Position numbers and translations under genes: made by a program. The notes beneath the pieces are model-generated. The model searched no databases. It saw nothing but the letters and a program-made list of their open reading frames with translations, and was not told the origin of the DNA. Positions 1,853 to 11,016 of a stretch of DNA of 36,860 nt are shown here, piece by piece (position 1 is the stretch's first letter; the number at the start of each line of letters is the position of its first letter). This stretch comes from a virus. Location of the stretch: the IMG/VR virus record IMGVR_UViG_3300032093_000394, positions 1 to 36,860 of that record, one strand, 5' to 3'.

Positions 1853-2133
1853 AGCGAGCCCTCCTTTTGGAGCGCCGCTTCCAGCTGGGCCTGCATTCTG
1901 GCTAGGTCGCTGGCATGTTCGCGGACACGGGCGAGGAACTGCCCCGGCTTAGGTGCCCATTCGTCAGGGCTCTTGAGCTGGCGCTGGGCGCATTCAACGA
2001 TGCTGGCGTAGGGCTGGCCGTCAAGGACAAACAGCCATGCGCGAACCGCGTCCTCGTGAATGTCCTTGCCGGGCGGAACGTAGGCAATGAGCATCTGTTT
2101 CAGGATCGAAAGCACTGGTGCGGGCTCAGCCAT
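1849..2133 (-). CDS. Hypothetical replication-module protein, 94 aa
   Basis: I chose the ATG at 2133, which overlaps the end of the DUF1376 gene by only eight bases. A longer in-frame reading from 2442 would run 316 bases inside that gene. The product is mostly helical, with IHEDAVRAWLFVLDGQPYAS and PDEWAPKPGQFLARVREHAS followed by a helical tail. The second motif resembles the W-x-P-x-P-G-E-L pattern in small phage proteins encoded beside replication initiators. A role as loader or accessory for the upstream DUF1376 protein is inference from position. Confidence 0.6.
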   Translation of the reverse strand: MAEPAPVLSILKQMLIAYVPPGKDIHEDAVRAWLFVLDGQPYASIVECAQRQLKSPDEWAPKPGQFLARVREHASDLARMQAQLEAALQKEGSL

Positions 2134-3010
2134 CGGTGCCTGTGCGCGTTTCAGGAGCCCAATGCTCGCCTTCAATTGTGAAGGCGTCAGATTGAACTGG
2201 ATCGGCTGGCCGGGCGGCGTGTCCCGCCATGCTTGCAGCAACCCGGTCGAAAGCCGAGAGAGTTTGCTCAGCTCCTCCGCGCTGGTAAGCGGGGCGAGCG
2301 GCGGCGCGCTTGCGCTTGTCGTCGCTAACGCGCCTGATCCAGTTTCGCCATGTGCCTTCCCAATCGAGCTTGCAGGCGTTTCTTCCGGTTGTGGCAATCC
2401 AGTAGTCACGGAACCGATCTGCTTCACGGTTGATCTCCTCACGGGTCATGCCCTCGCTGCTGGCGAAGGCGTAGTCTTTTGGGGTTGGGGTCCAGTTGGA
2501 CGGGATGCGCGATCCACGGGCGGCGCCTCTGGCCTTGCCAGTCGATTTGCTTTCAGGGGGGAGCGGCTTCGGGGGCGGCGCGCTTGCGCGCTCTACAGAA
2601 GCGTTAGCTTCTGTTCTTACTTCTGTATCTGTATCTGTATCTGTATCTGTATGGTCGGGCTTTGGTGATTGCACCGCTTTGATTTTGTTAGGGTGCGAAC
2701 GATTTTCGGCCTGTTTATCTCGGAATGTTCTCGTTTCTTCGAGCAGATAATCCGCGCGAGAGTTCGAGATAATGCCGTGATCGATGTTGATTTTGCCGCG
2801 CGCAAACAGCTCATCACGCAAGGCGCGCCACTTGCGAACAGAGCAGCCTAGCTGACCGGCAATGTACTGCGCGTCATCAGGAAGGCGCCCGTTTCGCATG
2901 TAAATCAGATCAAGGACGACCGCATAGGCGCCCTTGAGTTCAAGTCCCATGCCGATCGTTCCATCAAGGAAGTCGCGGGGGAACCGCTTGTAATATGGCA
3001 AGCTGTTCAT
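2126..3010 (-). CDS. DUF1376 (YdaU-like) replication-type protein
   Basis: The N-terminal 90 residues (MNSLPYYKRFPRDFLDGTIG, then LELKGAYAVVLDLIYMRNG) match the DUF1376 domain found in phage and prophage replication modules. The domain is thought to be winged-helix-like and to act at the phage origin. A low-complexity linker follows at about residues 115-165, with five Thr-Asp repeats and Pro/Ala-rich sequence. After it comes a C-terminal region with IPSNWTPTPKDYAFA and a Trp-rich WEGTWRNWIRR motif, as in other phage initiators and helicase loaders. At 294 residues it is the largest gene of the leftward operon and the best candidate for replication initiator. No helicase or polymerase gene is present in the window, so host enzymes would be recruited. 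Confidence 0.8.
   Translation of the reverse strand: MNSLPYYKRFPRDFLDGTIGMGLELKGAYAVVLDLIYMRNGRLPDDAQYIAGQLGCSVRKWRALRDELFARGKINIDHGIISNSRADYLLEETRTFRDKQAENRSHPNKIKAVQSPKPDHTDTDTDTDTEVRTEANASVERASAPPPKPLPPESKSTGKARGAARGSRIPSNWTPTPKDYAFASSEGMTREEINREADRFRDYWIATTGRNACKLDWEGTWRNWIRRVSDDKRKRAAARPAYQRGGAEQTLSAFDRVAASMAGHAARPADPVQSDAFTIEGEHWAPETRTGTDG
2623..2652. repeat. Hexanucleotide tandem repeat, 5 copies
   Basis: Five perfect copies of CTGTAT (ATACAG on the coding strand) lie inside the DUF1376 gene and encode the Thr-Asp repeats of its linker. Since the unit is six bases, copy-number change keeps the reading frame and would only lengthen or shorten the linker. Confidence 0.9.
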
Positions 3011-3294: not shown

Positions 3295-3638
3295 GCTGCT
3301 CTCCGTTCCGCCAGCGCGGCTTCGATCTGTGCGCGGTTGATCCGGCACCATTGGCGCAAGGCCGCATCACTGATTTCGAGGGTGCGTGCTGCCGATTTCC
3401 AGCAATGTCCGGCAAGGCGCAGCTTGTACGCCTCCACGCGGCGGCGGAACTCATAGCCGGTCACGGGCTTGCGGCTTCCGCCTGCCCGGCGAAACTTGGC
3501 CACTTGCTCAGCGTAATGCGGGCGGGCCTTCAGCCAGTTGTAAACGGTCTGCGCGGCGATGCCTTCCGAACGCGCAAACGCGCGCATGGACTTGCCAGCC
3601 TCAAGGGCTGCAATCAGGCGGTCAAAACGACCCTTCAT
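3291..3638 (-). CDS. Double helix-turn-helix DNA-binding protein
   Basis: This 115-residue protein starts at 3638 (ATGA overlap). It shows two helix-turn-helix-like segments. The first is at residues 15-35 (KSMRAFARSEGIAAQTVYNW), and the second is near residues 77-97 (CWKSAARTLEISDAALRQWC). Between them is a basic stretch, KFRRAGGSRKPVTGYEFRRR. The first resembles transposase- or terminase-type HTH units. It is probably a DNA-binding regulator or packaging/replication accessory. It lies between the GcrA-like gene and the replication genes. Confidence 0.65.
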   Translation of the reverse strand: MKGRFDRLIAALEAGKSMRAFARSEGIAAQTVYNWLKARPHYAEQVAKFRRAGGSRKPVTGYEFRRRVEAYKLRLAGHCWKSAARTLEISDAALRQWCRINRAQIEAALAERRAA

Positions 3639-4093
3639 GCCATGCCCCCCGACGACTGAGCCACCGACCGGCTTGTGTGGTGCGGGCAATACCGTCCGCC
3701 CTCGGCGTGGGCGCCGCAGAACTTGTGCGGCAGGGCGTCTGTCACAGGCCAGCGGCAGGACGTGCGCGACAGGGCGTCAAACAGAATGCCTTCAACAGGA
3801 GGCGGCTTAGGCGGATCAATGCGCTTGACTGGCGCGGTCGTGCGCTGGCGGGCTTCCTTGCGCTTCAGGACAAGGCCTGGCGACACCGCGTTGGCTTGGG
3901 CCTTTTCCGACCGGCTGCCGGAATGACGGCGACCGCCAAGGGCAATGGCATTCCGGTGGCAAATCCCGATGATCGTGTTGCGGGTCACGCCAAAGCGCGC
4001 CGCGATTTCCCGCCCGCTCTGGCCTGAGTTGGCCAGTGTGCGGATGTAATCGATGCTGTCGGCGCTCCAGCGCGCTGTGTATTCTCTTGGCAT
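3635..4093 (-). CDS. gcrA: GcrA-like cell-cycle regulator
   Basis: This 152-residue protein has the GcrA layout. An N-terminal DNA-binding helix-turn-helix (residues 6-45) includes WSADSIDYIRTL, GREIAARFGVTRNTIIG and a HRN start of the next segment. A variable basic linker follows. The C-terminal module is CRWPVTDALPHKFCG...GGRYCPHH, the Cys/His part that in Caulobacter GcrA contacts sigma-70. GcrA is confined to Alphaproteobacteria and activates promoters carrying CcrM-methylated GANTC sites, so a phage copy suggests control of phage or host promoters through the host methylation cycle. The start has the TAGGGGCTGGGGA purine-rich leader. This is one of the strongest pointers to host class. 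Confidence 0.85.
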   Translation of the reverse strand: MPREYTARWSADSIDYIRTLANSGQSGREIAARFGVTRNTIIGICHRNAIALGGRRHSGSRSEKAQANAVSPGLVLKRKEARQRTTAPVKRIDPPKPPPVEGILFDALSRTSCRWPVTDALPHKFCGAHAEGGRYCPHHTSRSVAQSSGGMA

Positions 4094-5456: not shown

Positions 5457-5465
5457 GGGAGGCAG

Positions 5466-5493
5466 TTTATGCGTTGTGCATAATTGGTGTCAA
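5466..5493 (-). promoter_or_regulatory. Leftward promoter of the switch region
   Basis: On the minus strand a perfect -35, TTGACA (5493-5488), is followed after 16 bases by CATAAA (5471-5466). The predicted start is near 5459, only about three bases before the ATG at 5456. The -10 lies inside the 5467-5483 operator and the -35 touches the 5491-5507 operator, so bound repressor would block it. Confidence 0.55.
5467..5483. promoter_or_regulatory. Operator, perfect copy 1
   Basis: TTATGCGTTGTGCATAA is a 17-bp dyad with arms TTATGC and GCATAA and a five-base spacer. The same sequence, spacer included, recurs at 5896-5912. It overlaps the -10 of the leftward promoter. Confidence 0.75.
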
Positions 5494-5507
5494 TGCCCGC
5501 CGCATAA
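5491..5507. promoter_or_regulatory. Operator, degenerate copy
   Basis: CAATGC-CCGCC-GCATAA keeps the right arm exactly and four of six bases in the left arm, with the same 17-bp length. It is 24 bp (centre to centre) from the perfect copy at 5467-5483. Likely a weaker binding site. Confidence 0.5.
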
Positions 5508-5529
5508 ATTTTTGGCGTAATTTCCAGTC

Positions 5530-5844
5530 ATGGAATCACGAGCCAGTAGATTAAAGGCGGCGCGCAAGGATGCGGGCTACACAAGCGTCAGAGCGGCGTG
5601 TGATGCCTTTGGCTATCCCTACCCTACGTATGCAGCGCACGAGAACGGCTCTCGGGATTATGACTTCGATGCTGCCCAGCGCTACGCCCGCGCGTTCAAG
5701 GTGGACGCAACCTGGTTGATGTCGGGACGAGCGGCAACGCCCGCCGTCGGGGCTGAAATCGTGGACATCTGGACCCGCATCCCAGAGCGCGACCGAGCCG
5801 CCGCCCTTCGTATGCTTCGCGGGCTCGCCAAGAACAGCGAATAA
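5530..5844 (+). CDS. XRE-family phage repressor-like regulator, 104 aa
   Basis: Residues 1-62 form a lambda-repressor-like HTH: MESRASRLKAARKDAGYTSV, RAACDAFGYPYPTYAAHENG and a RYARAFKVDATWLMSG segment that closes the domain. The remaining 40 residues (ERDRAAALRMLRGLAK) are helical and may dimerise. There is no S24/LexA-type peptidase domain, so RecA-stimulated self-cleavage is not expected and induction must work differently. No Shine-Dalgarno is evident. Operators lie on both its 5' side (5467-5507) and its 3' side (5861-5912). It directly precedes the early rightward operon, which is the Cro position in lambda, but on size it could equally be the prophage repressor. Confidence 0.75.
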   Translation: MESRASRLKAARKDAGYTSVRAACDAFGYPYPTYAAHENGSRDYDFDAAQRYARAFKVDATWLMSGRAATPAVGAEIVDIWTRIPERDRAAALRMLRGLAKNSE

Positions 5845-5860
5845 CGTTTCTTGAAAAAAT

Positions 5861-5877
5861 TTATGCGCATGGCATAA
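5861..5877. promoter_or_regulatory. Operator, perfect copy 2
   Basis: TTATGCGCATGGCATAA has both perfect arms of the switch-region operator with a different spacer. It lies just after the stop of the 104-residue regulator, upstream of the early rightward promoter. An extra left half-site, TTATGC, follows at 5880-5885. Confidence 0.75.
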
Positions 5878-5885
5878 GTTTATGC

Positions 5886-5913
5886 TTGCAAGGGTTTATG
5901 CGTTGTGCATAAT
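5886..5913 (+). promoter_or_regulatory. Early rightward promoter
   Basis: TTGCAA (5886-5891) and CATAAT (5908-5913) are separated by 16 bases. The -10 matches the consensus at five of six positions and lies within the third operator copy. The predicted start near 5920 would leave a short leader with a CGGAG Shine-Dalgarno before the gene at 5937. It should drive the 5937-11360 operon. Confidence 0.55.
5896..5912. promoter_or_regulatory. Operator, perfect copy 3
   Basis: TTATGCGTTGTGCATAA is identical over all 17 bases to the copy at 5467-5483. It overlaps the -10 of the early rightward promoter, so occupancy should repress the operon. Confidence 0.75.
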
Positions 5914-5936
5914 GGTCTCCAACAACGGAGACAGAC

Positions 5937-6576: not shown

Positions 6577-6758
6577 CGTACGCAGTCGAGCAGCGGGGCG
6601 AGACGCAGCGCCTGAACGAGGAACTAGCCCGCATTCAGCGCTGCCGAGTGTTGGCAGCATGGGCGGAAAACAAGGCCGCTGAGAAGGCGCGCCGGGACGC
6701 GCTTATGGCGCACTGGCTGACGGATACATGGACACGAGAGGAACAGGAAAATGGCTGA
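6573..6758 (+). CDS. Hypothetical early protein, 61 aa
   Basis: The start is in an ATGA overlap and the 3' end overlaps the ERF gene by eight bases, carrying its Shine-Dalgarno (AGGAACAGG). The product is a highly charged, probably single long helix (QRLNEELARIQRCRVLAAWA, then ENKAAEKARRDALMAHW). No family recognised. Confidence 0.55.
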   Translation: MTYAVEQRGETQRLNEELARIQRCRVLAAWAENKAAEKARRDALMAHWLTDTWTREEQENG

Positions 6759-7434
6759 CGATATGATGGGCGGACAATTCCGCCAACAGACAATGACAAC
6801 CTGGAGCCCCGAGCGGGGTGCGCTGGCCAAGGCAATGGCCAAGGCGCAAGGCGACCTTGGCCCGGTCCTGAAGGACAAGACCAACCCGGCTTTCCGGTCA
6901 AAATACGCCGACCTTGGCGCGGTGCTCGAAGCTGTCCTCCCAGCTTTGAACCGGGCTGGTCTGTCCCTCATCCAGTCACCATCATACGATGGATCGCTGG
7001 TCGGCGTAACCTCTATCCTGCTTCACGAAAGCGGCGAGTGGATGGAAGCCACGCTGCACATGAAGCCGGTCAAGATGGACCCGCAAGGCATCGGCTCGTG
7101 CATCACCTACGCACGGCGCTACGCGGCTCTGGCAATTGCTGGGGCGGCTCCTGAAGACGACGATGCGAATGCGGCCTCTGGCGCCGTGGACCGTAGCCAA
7201 AAGGTGCCCCGTGTGGACGTGACCCCATTGGACAGCGCCATGTCCAGCCGGGACGTGAAAGAAATGCACGGCAAACTCTCTCGCGGCATCAACTCTTGCA
7301 ATTCCGTGGACGCCCTCAAGGAGTGGTCGAAGGCTTGGAAGGATCAGCTTGACGAACTTCCAGAGGATGTTGCCAACGACTTGCGCGGCCTTTGGTCTGC
7401 ACGGCGCGACGAACTGAAGGCGATTGAGGCATGA
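6751..7434 (+). CDS. erf: ERF-family single-strand annealing protein
   Basis: The 227-residue protein matches the ERF family of phage recombinases. It has the N-terminal LAKAMAKAQGDLGPVLKDKT, then NPAFRSKYADLGAVLEAVLP, then a strand-rich core. The core includes LSLIQSPSYDG, HESGEWMEATLHMKP and the diagnostic DPQGIGSCITYARRYAALAI. ERF proteins anneal complementary single strands and promote genome circularisation and recombination, which suits a terminally redundant phage. The C-terminal 80 residues are a separate helical part (SRGINSCNSVDALKEWSKAW), probably for oligomer or partner contacts. No exonuclease partner is visible next to it. Confidence 0.9.
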   Translation: MADDMMGGQFRQQTMTTWSPERGALAKAMAKAQGDLGPVLKDKTNPAFRSKYADLGAVLEAVLPALNRAGLSLIQSPSYDGSLVGVTSILLHESGEWMEATLHMKPVKMDPQGIGSCITYARRYAALAIAGAAPEDDDANAASGAVDRSQKVPRVDVTPLDSAMSSRDVKEMHGKLSRGINSCNSVDALKEWSKAWKDQLDELPEDVANDLRGLWSARRDELKAIEA

Positions 7435-9890: not shown

Positions 9891-10180
9891 CCCAGTTGCT
9901 GACGATTTCCCAAGCCGCAGAACGGCTGAGCGTTGGCGATTCCACGGTGCGCCGCTGGATACGCGATGGTAAACTATCGACCTGCAAGCTGGGGCCAAAG
10001 CTGATCCGGATCAGGCCGGAAGTGCTGGAGGAGTTCATTCAATGTCAGGATACAGGCTCGACCGCCCCAACATCAACGGGCGAAGATCAGACACCTGGTA
10101 TGTCATCTGGTCCGAGAAAGGCCGCTCTCGTCGCGTCTCTTCCAAGGAGACTGACCGCTGGCAGGCCGAGCGGTTCCTAG
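9887..10180 (+). CDS. Excisionase-like MerR-type DNA-binding protein
   Basis: Residues 3-53 form a MerR/excisionase helix-turn-helix with wing: LLTISQAAERLSVGDSTVRR, WIRDGKLSTCKLGPKLIRIR and the closing PEVLEEFIQ. Such proteins act as recombination directionality factors, bending DNA at att sites and favouring excision. Here the gene is immediately upstream of, and overlaps by 139 bases, the integrase start. The last 45 residues are read from bases also coding for integrase and look unstructured, so the functional part is the first 52 residues. Confidence 0.75.
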   Translation: MTQLLTISQAAERLSVGDSTVRRWIRDGKLSTCKLGPKLIRIRPEVLEEFIQCQDTGSTAPTSTGEDQTPGMSSGPRKAALVASLPRRLTAGRPSGS

Positions 10181-11016
10181 CCGAATACGAGGCGGTTCAA
10201 GACCTGCCGCCACAGGAGTTTGATATAGCCATGCTGGTCCGGGGATACCTTGAGGAAGCGCCGGGCGAGCATCACCACGCCAAGGCTGTTATCCGCTTGC
10301 TAGGCCCCCTTTCACCGTCCAGCCTGACGCGCGCCCGTGTGCGGATGTTCCACAAGTCCCGGCGCGCTGAGGGAGCGTCTGACAGCACGATCAATCGCCA
10401 GTCCCGTGTATTGCGCGCTGCGCTTCAATGGGGCCGCAAGGAAGGCTGGCTGAAGGAGTTGCCACACATCGACGCCCCGACACCTGCCCCGCCCCGTGAG
10501 CGCTTCCTGACGCGCGCTGAGTTCGCCCGGCTGTATGAAGCCGCTGAGCAGATCCACCTGCGCACGTTCCTTGCCCTTGCCGTCTATACCGGGCAGCGCG
10601 CGTCTGCGATCCTGGAACTGACATGGGACGACATAGACACCGAGAACATGCTGGTCCGCTACCAAGGCGGCAATGCCACGAAGCGGAGAACGCCCTACGT
10701 GCCGATCAGCGCCCCGCTGGCCCTGACGCTCTCGACGGCCATGCTGGACCGCAACGGGCCGTTTGTGGTGCATTGGCGGGGGGAGCCGATCACCAGCATC
10801 AAGAAGGCTTTCGGGGCCGCTGTGCGCCGGGCTGGGCTGCGTGACGTGCGCATCCATGATTTGCGCCGGACGGCTGCGAGCTGGGTGCTGGACAATGGCG
10901 GGACGTTCGACATGGCGGCTGCGCTTCTGTCCGATGACGTGCGCACCGTGCGCCGGCACTATGCGCGGTTCAGTGACGAATACATGGTTGGGATAACAGG
11001 AAGGATTGCGGGATGA
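10042..11016 (+). CDS. int: Tyrosine-recombinase integrase
   Basis: The 324-residue protein has an N-terminal arm-binding-like part and a core-binding SAM-like domain (about 60-145, with INRQSRVLRAALQWGRKEGW). The catalytic domain spans about 155-320. Recognisable active-site residues are Arg186 (YTGQRAS), Lys214, His272 and Arg275 (IHDLRRTAAS) and nucleophile Tyr307 (RRHYARF). At the position normally held by His or Trp, eight residues before Tyr, there is Asp298 (LLSDD), which is unusual if the alignment is right. It is the penultimate gene of the early operon, overlapped by its excisionase-like partner, and the attP core lies 364 bases downstream. It should insert the phage into a tRNA-Val gene. 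Confidence 0.9.
   Translation: MSGYRLDRPNINGRRSDTWYVIWSEKGRSRRVSSKETDRWQAERFLAEYEAVQDLPPQEFDIAMLVRGYLEEAPGEHHHAKAVIRLLGPLSPSSLTRARVRMFHKSRRAEGASDSTINRQSRVLRAALQWGRKEGWLKELPHIDAPTPAPPRERFLTRAEFARLYEAAEQIHLRTFLALAVYTGQRASAILELTWDDIDTENMLVRYQGGNATKRRTPYVPISAPLALTLSTAMLDRNGPFVVHWRGEPITSIKKAFGAAVRRAGLRDVRIHDLRRTAASWVLDNGGTFDMAAALLSDDVRTVRRHYARFSDEYMVGITGRIAG

Follow-up and report, generated by a model that had tools for sequence, protein, structure and literature searches.

This locus raises the question of which protein reads a set of inverted repeats flanking a phage regulator gene, and which promoters are governed through them. Within the window, the whole stretch of 36,860 bases that was analysed, the dyad TTATGC-N5-GCATAA occurs in perfect form at 5467–5483, 5861–5877 and 5896–5912, in agreement with an earlier note on this DNA. 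These are the sole perfect copies in the record, and 100 dinucleotide shuffles of it yielded none. At three mismatches the number of dyads is near chance (11 versus 9.2 expected), so that information resides only in close matches. The copies at 5467 and 5896 both read TTATGCGTTGTGCATAA and are, as had been noticed before, identical including the spacer, with starts 429 bases apart; the copy at 5861 reads TTATGCGCATGGCATAA. A fourth copy with two mismatches is situated at 5491–5507 (CAATGCCCGCCGCATAA). The dyads thus flank the regulator gene P2 (5530..5844) on both sides, as previously claimed, with one pair between P1 and P2 (operators 1 and 2, at 5467 and 5491, OR1-like and OR2-like) and a far pair beyond P2 (5861 and 5896, OL-like). 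From sequence evidence they are very probably operators.

P1 (5223..5456, minus strand, 77 aa), a predicted Cro-like HTH protein with a weak match to the DNA-binding family phrog_8008 of PHROGs, opens the leftward early operon. This series reaches a DUF1376/primosomal replication protein (2126..3010, minus strand; PF07120, phrog_3992). Downstream of P1 there is also a homologue of the cell-cycle regulator GcrA, again encoded leftward (3635–4093 of the window; PF07750, E 5.2e-15). The rightward early operon is headed by P3 (5937..6131, plus strand, 64 aa), an open reading frame without convincing family match in Pfam or PHROGs, from which a tightly packed gene series runs through the ERF single-strand annealing protein (6751..7434, plus strand; PF04404, E 1.2e-22) and an HNH gene to a tyrosine integrase close to the operon end (10042..11016, plus strand; PF00589, E 1.4e-17).

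Located between the two operons on the plus strand, P2 is a CI-like HTH_3/XRE repressor of 104 aa, as indicated by PHROGs and by its fold. The score against Pfam HTH_3 (PF01381) is 22.9 bits, with a curated cut-off of 23. The AlphaFold model (pLDDT 92.5) comprises seven helices, including the five-helix HTH domain, and matches ImmR with a Z-score of 12.2 and P22 c2 with 10.8 over 65–66 residues. In this model the fold is that of a lambda/434-type repressor domain. PDB entries of NCAM and BTK among the matches were regarded as chance. Many relatives of P2 are repressors of 200–245 aa with a C-terminal peptidase/oligomerisation domain, whereas P2 lacks this domain and with it the S24 peptidase; neither an S24 nor an M78 peptidase was found elsewhere in the record.

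Both operator pairs appear fused to promoters. In each, the GCATAA arm of one dyad doubles as the −10 box (CATAAT or CATAAA), with a TTGAC-type −35 box 16–17 bp upstream. The leftward early promoter is predicted on the minus strand with CATAAA at 5466..5471, inside the 5467 dyad, placed 16 bp from the −35 box TTGACA (5488..5493), which overlaps operator 2. Relatives have CATAAT at this −10 position; a simple promoter scan had picked TAAACT with an 18-bp spacer instead. On the plus strand, the rightward early promoter combines TTGCAA at 5886..5891 with CATAAT at 5908..5913, inside the 5896 dyad and 16 bp away. Across relatives, a −35 box matching in at least 5 of 6 positions stands 16–17 bp from the operator arm at 27 of the 39 far and 32 of the 48 near sites, compared with a control of 0.6% per spacer. 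The overlap of dyads with promoters in both directions, predicted earlier, is plausible, and the fit recurs across relatives.

The same arrangement accounts for operator 2. In the near pair, GCATTGACA is half-site and −35 box in one, so that operator 2 and the −35 box are fused: the CAA arm of the operator complements the TTG of the box, and the CAATGC mismatches of the 5491 copy arise because half-site and −35 box share sequence. Of 48 relatives, 39 have a CAATGC-N5-GCATA copy placed 22–26 nt from operator 1. Hence the weaker copy of the earlier note is indeed present, yet it is a conserved second operator, not a degenerate one, its deviation being set by TTGACA on the opposite strand. A terminator-like prediction at 5485–5502 was discarded as being at chance level (3 found, 3.4 expected).

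In 35 of 48 relatives, the P1-type or Cro-type gene begins with an ATG 7–10 nt beyond the dyad, suggesting that the mRNA of P1, whose start codon follows the dyad at about 10 nt, is probably leaderless. On the other side, an inverted repeat (GTCTCC-AACAAC-GGAGAC, 5915..5932) spans the predicted rightward transcription start, with the probable ribosome-binding site of P3 located in its right arm. Of 37 relatives, 11 have inverted repeats of at least 6 pairs, differing in sequence, at the corresponding position (shuffle mean 0.42); such repeats are rare at neighbouring offsets. A transcription start 7 nt past the −10 box would leave most of the left arm outside the RNA.

The arrangement was traced in relatives both from the operator and from the protein. 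IMG/VR was scanned for two neighbouring dyads on DNA only, without protein information; the first tandem-dyad pattern gave 47 viral matches, about the number estimated for chance, of which only those adjoining P2-like genes were used. This DNA-only scan led to the locus L052, which encodes relatives of P1 (62% identical, in the same place) and P2 (71%) and contains all four sites: one dyad plus one CAATGC copy separate the P1 and P2 relatives, and past P2 come two dyads with a spacing of exactly 35 nt. The same locus was found as a prophage in Hyphomonas sp. CY54-11-8 (L055). In L052, an extra gene of 121 aa with a signal-peptide-like start and YGNTT-type repeats (1388–1753), convergent to the repressor, is inserted between P2 and the far pair. 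The far pair stays with the next operon and not with P2 across the inserted gene, the behaviour expected of a promoter operator. The 121-aa gene itself is possibly a lysogenic-conversion gene.

Five P2 DNA-binding domains, three of them seeds first found via operators, were aligned and used as query; the scans yielded 26 bacterial and 70 viral loci; all bacterial loci with a named lineage belong to alphaproteobacteria, and the host of the phage is probably an alphaproteobacterium as well. A dyad with at most one mismatch occurs within 110 bp of the repressor start in 30 of 83 loci with distinct upstream DNA; at the same threshold, 119 permuted half-sites used as control gave a mean of 0.11 loci and at most 5. 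The core TATGC-N5-GCATA is found upstream of the repressor, again within 110 bp, in 33 of the 83 loci, a figure slightly biased by the three seeds that came from operator searches, and with a spacer of 5 only among spacers of 0–11. The 885 kb examined contain 88 cores, of which 33 precede the repressor, 54 are on its far side (250–4250 bp) and 1 is elsewhere. About a quarter of P2 relatives lack a palindrome backed by a second copy. Besides L052, operator 1 is kept in 48 relatives at no more than one core mismatch.

An operator-only scan with the composite pattern TATGC-N5-GCATA-N5..9-CAATGC-N5-GCATA detected 58 sites in 52 viral stretches. At 33 of these a P2-like gene starts 59–83 bp downstream, with Arg at position 42 in every case, and ten further sites are 270–1050 bp from a P2-like gene. 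Five loci (L165, L181, L182, L183 and L196) have two composite sites each, in opposite orientation. A scan of 385 genomes from the same class as the Hyphomonas host detected the pattern in one, namely in the known prophage, which indicates a background near zero. The motif search in related phages that the earlier note had proposed thus found the dyads kept at corresponding places.

Far pairs of relatives show two spacings, either 34–35, as in the window (17 pairs counted), or 24–25 with a fused −35 box. The half-site TTATGC reported at 5880–5885 is present in the window; it is not conserved, being missing in the nearest relative and in the other listed relatives with 34–35 bp pairs, and for this reason it is probably a chance occurrence outside the operator system. 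No third operator was found near the P2 start in the window or in L052; several relatives have one.

Searches with P1 as query gave no relatives in viral contigs and phages, and P2 alone as query retrieved only two distant loci in viral contigs. TTATGC dyads were not found beside the repressor in annotated phage relatives (Microcystis, Synechococcus, Caulobacter, Ruegeria, Rhizobium and Bradyrhizobium). Bradyrhizobium phage ppBeUSDA76-2 (L154, 3977–4327) has the same layout of DUF1376 gene, short repressor and ERF gene, with CGCTAC-N5-GTAGCG at the place of the operator in the same 6-5-6 geometry. Two stretches with many perfect copies, L007 (12 copies in 6.1 kb) and L038 (7 in 3.9 kb), were set aside as unrelated repeats without P2-like genes. 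Their copies lie mostly directly ahead of small genes, in the same orientation as those genes, and may represent phage promoters, or operators belonging to a different system.

The likely reader of the dyads is P2, because residue 42 of the protein covaries with base 6 of the half-site. Arg42 is associated with half-sites ending in C, and Ser or Asp at this position with A or G (TATGA, TATGG), giving 43:2 against 0:16 across relatives (p 7.5e-13, a value that overstates independence since the rows are related by descent). The tree, which is weakly resolved, places residues other than Arg at position 42 on about three branches, and a combination of H37N with Ala42 goes with the half-site CTGTAT/G. 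In the alignment with C.Csp231I, Arg42 falls opposite His43, one of the three residues with which that protein contacts bases in its operator complex on CTAAG-N5-CTTAG, a site with an identical spacer length (PMC4321490). Arg42 of P2 is predicted to read base 6. Taken together, this argues strongly, if indirectly, for P2 as the reader.

That P1 is the main reader, with P2 binding elsewhere or working via P1, is very improbable, even though L052 retains P1 next to the sites and, in their predicted recognition helix, P1-type neighbours of TATGC operators carry Y[PQ]TV, comparable to Y[PQ]TY in P2. The gene divergent from the P2-like repressor is P1-like in some relatives and an unrelated XRE protein in most, while the operator remains constant; moreover, the half-site varies with residue 42 of P2, and operator-only matches adjoin P2-like genes. 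As a lead, P1 probably reads the same sites too. A further observation concerns L157, L167 and L195, where a different repressor gene is flanked by two composite TATGC-N5-GCATA sites. The composite site stands there next to a Cro-like protein, the helix of which (PYPTIAAVCNGQRG) resembles PYPTYAAHENGSRD of P2. Convergence of these proteins on the same operator is possible, and likewise a lead.

It is barely conceivable that the dyads bind a host regulator or form hairpins and are close to P2 by coincidence: the composite site is confined to the known prophage among the 385 genomes scanned from the class of the Hyphomonas host, the sites are concentrated in two positions flanking a single gene family, and their geometry fits promoters. 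A reading as host LexA/SOS box was ruled out, given that LexA boxes of alphaproteobacteria are GTTC-N7-GTTC. Looping, raised in the earlier note, deserves more weight but is still unlikely. In the manner of lambda CI octamers, P2 bound to both pairs would close a putative loop of some 0.4 kb and thereby shut down both promoters. In its favour, the presence of a pair on either side of the gene is conserved, and tetramers bridging separated sites have been proposed for the similar short protein C.Csp231I (PMC4321490). However, P2 lacks the C-terminal domain that serves looping in lambda, the two pairs are anywhere from about 0.4 to 4 kb apart in relatives, and each pair alone covers a complete promoter, which would suffice. 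The double block on a single early operon, also suggested earlier, does not agree with the layout: one pair is assigned to each operon, leftward (P1) and rightward (P3 to ERF and integrase).

The reading preferred here is that the region constitutes a lambda-like immunity region of a temperate phage, in which P2 acts as repressor on two operator pairs and silences both early operons; this is considered highly probable. The sites, their fit to both promoters, the conserved layout and the covariation between operator and P2 are taken directly from the DNA. A P2 dimer would bind each 17-bp operator TTATGC-N5-GCATAA. Operators at 5467 and 5491 would cover the −10 and −35 boxes of the leftward early promoter, from which P1 and then the replication genes may be transcribed, and those at 5861 and 5896, beyond the 3′ end of P2, would cover the rightward early promoter of P3, ERF, HNH and integrase genes. 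With a dimer on each dyad, both promoter boxes would be covered. In the lysogen, occupation of both pairs would keep both early operons silent, and upon loss of P2 both would fire together. P1 would then probably occupy the same sites and lower P2.

This architecture is already known from lambda and from phage 16-3 with its two operators per side. As is generally known for OR/OL, cI and cro of lambda, the operators are two-fold symmetric sites of 17 bp, with one cluster between the divergent cI-like and cro-like genes and the other at the recombination/integrase operon promoter on the far side of cI, and neighbouring operators at OR are about 24 bp apart. Correspondingly, the operators at 5467 and 5491 lie between the repressor and a divergent cro-like gene, and those at 5861 and 5896 form a second cluster ahead of the operon for recombination and integration. 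In contrast, lambda has three operators per cluster instead of the two per side found in the window and in L052, a distance of over 2 kb between clusters instead of about 0.4 kb, and a repressor with a self-cleaving C-terminal domain, which the 104-aa P2 lacks. Here the cro-like mRNA and not the repressor mRNA looks leaderless, and the operator sequence is unrelated. The C repressor of Rhizobium phage 16-3 acts on oL1, oL2, oR1 and oR2 (PMC12429752). Shared with the present locus are the two operators on each side and, in all probability, an alphaproteobacterial host. The operators of 16-3 probably differ in sequence from the dyads described here.

With respect to the protein, the best whole-length Foldseek match to P2 is C.Csp231I, likewise a short HTH protein of seven helices that recognizes half-sites around N5. 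It differs in governing restriction-modification genes and in its half-site, and the sequences are only 23–27% identical (weak match, E 0.39). The best domain match is ImmR of ICEBs1 (7t8i; Z 12.2 over 65 residues, profile E 3e-7), also a repressor of a mobile element without a peptidase of its own. ImmR is cut by the separate protease ImmA, whereas a search of the window revealed no M78 peptidase.

The operator family, its half-sites and the residue–base code were not found in the open-licence literature searched. A 2025 study of phiLM21-like prophages of Sinorhizobium detected no operators identical to those of lambda or 16-3, and the operators were left unknown (PMC12429752). The present operator family spans many alphaproteobacterial phages and prophages and is tied to a repressor family with a covarying residue. 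There is a reasonable, though not strong, case that it represents a widespread and so far undescribed class of immunity switch in alphaproteobacterial phages, with TATGC-N5-GCATA fused to both early promoters and residue 42 setting base 6. Short repressors without a self-cleaving domain share operators with long ones, which raises the question of how these prophages are induced. The operator family gives rise to testable predictions on superinfection immunity groups and operator specificity and, if the proposed class is real, operator sequence and immunity group would be predictable from the repressor alone.
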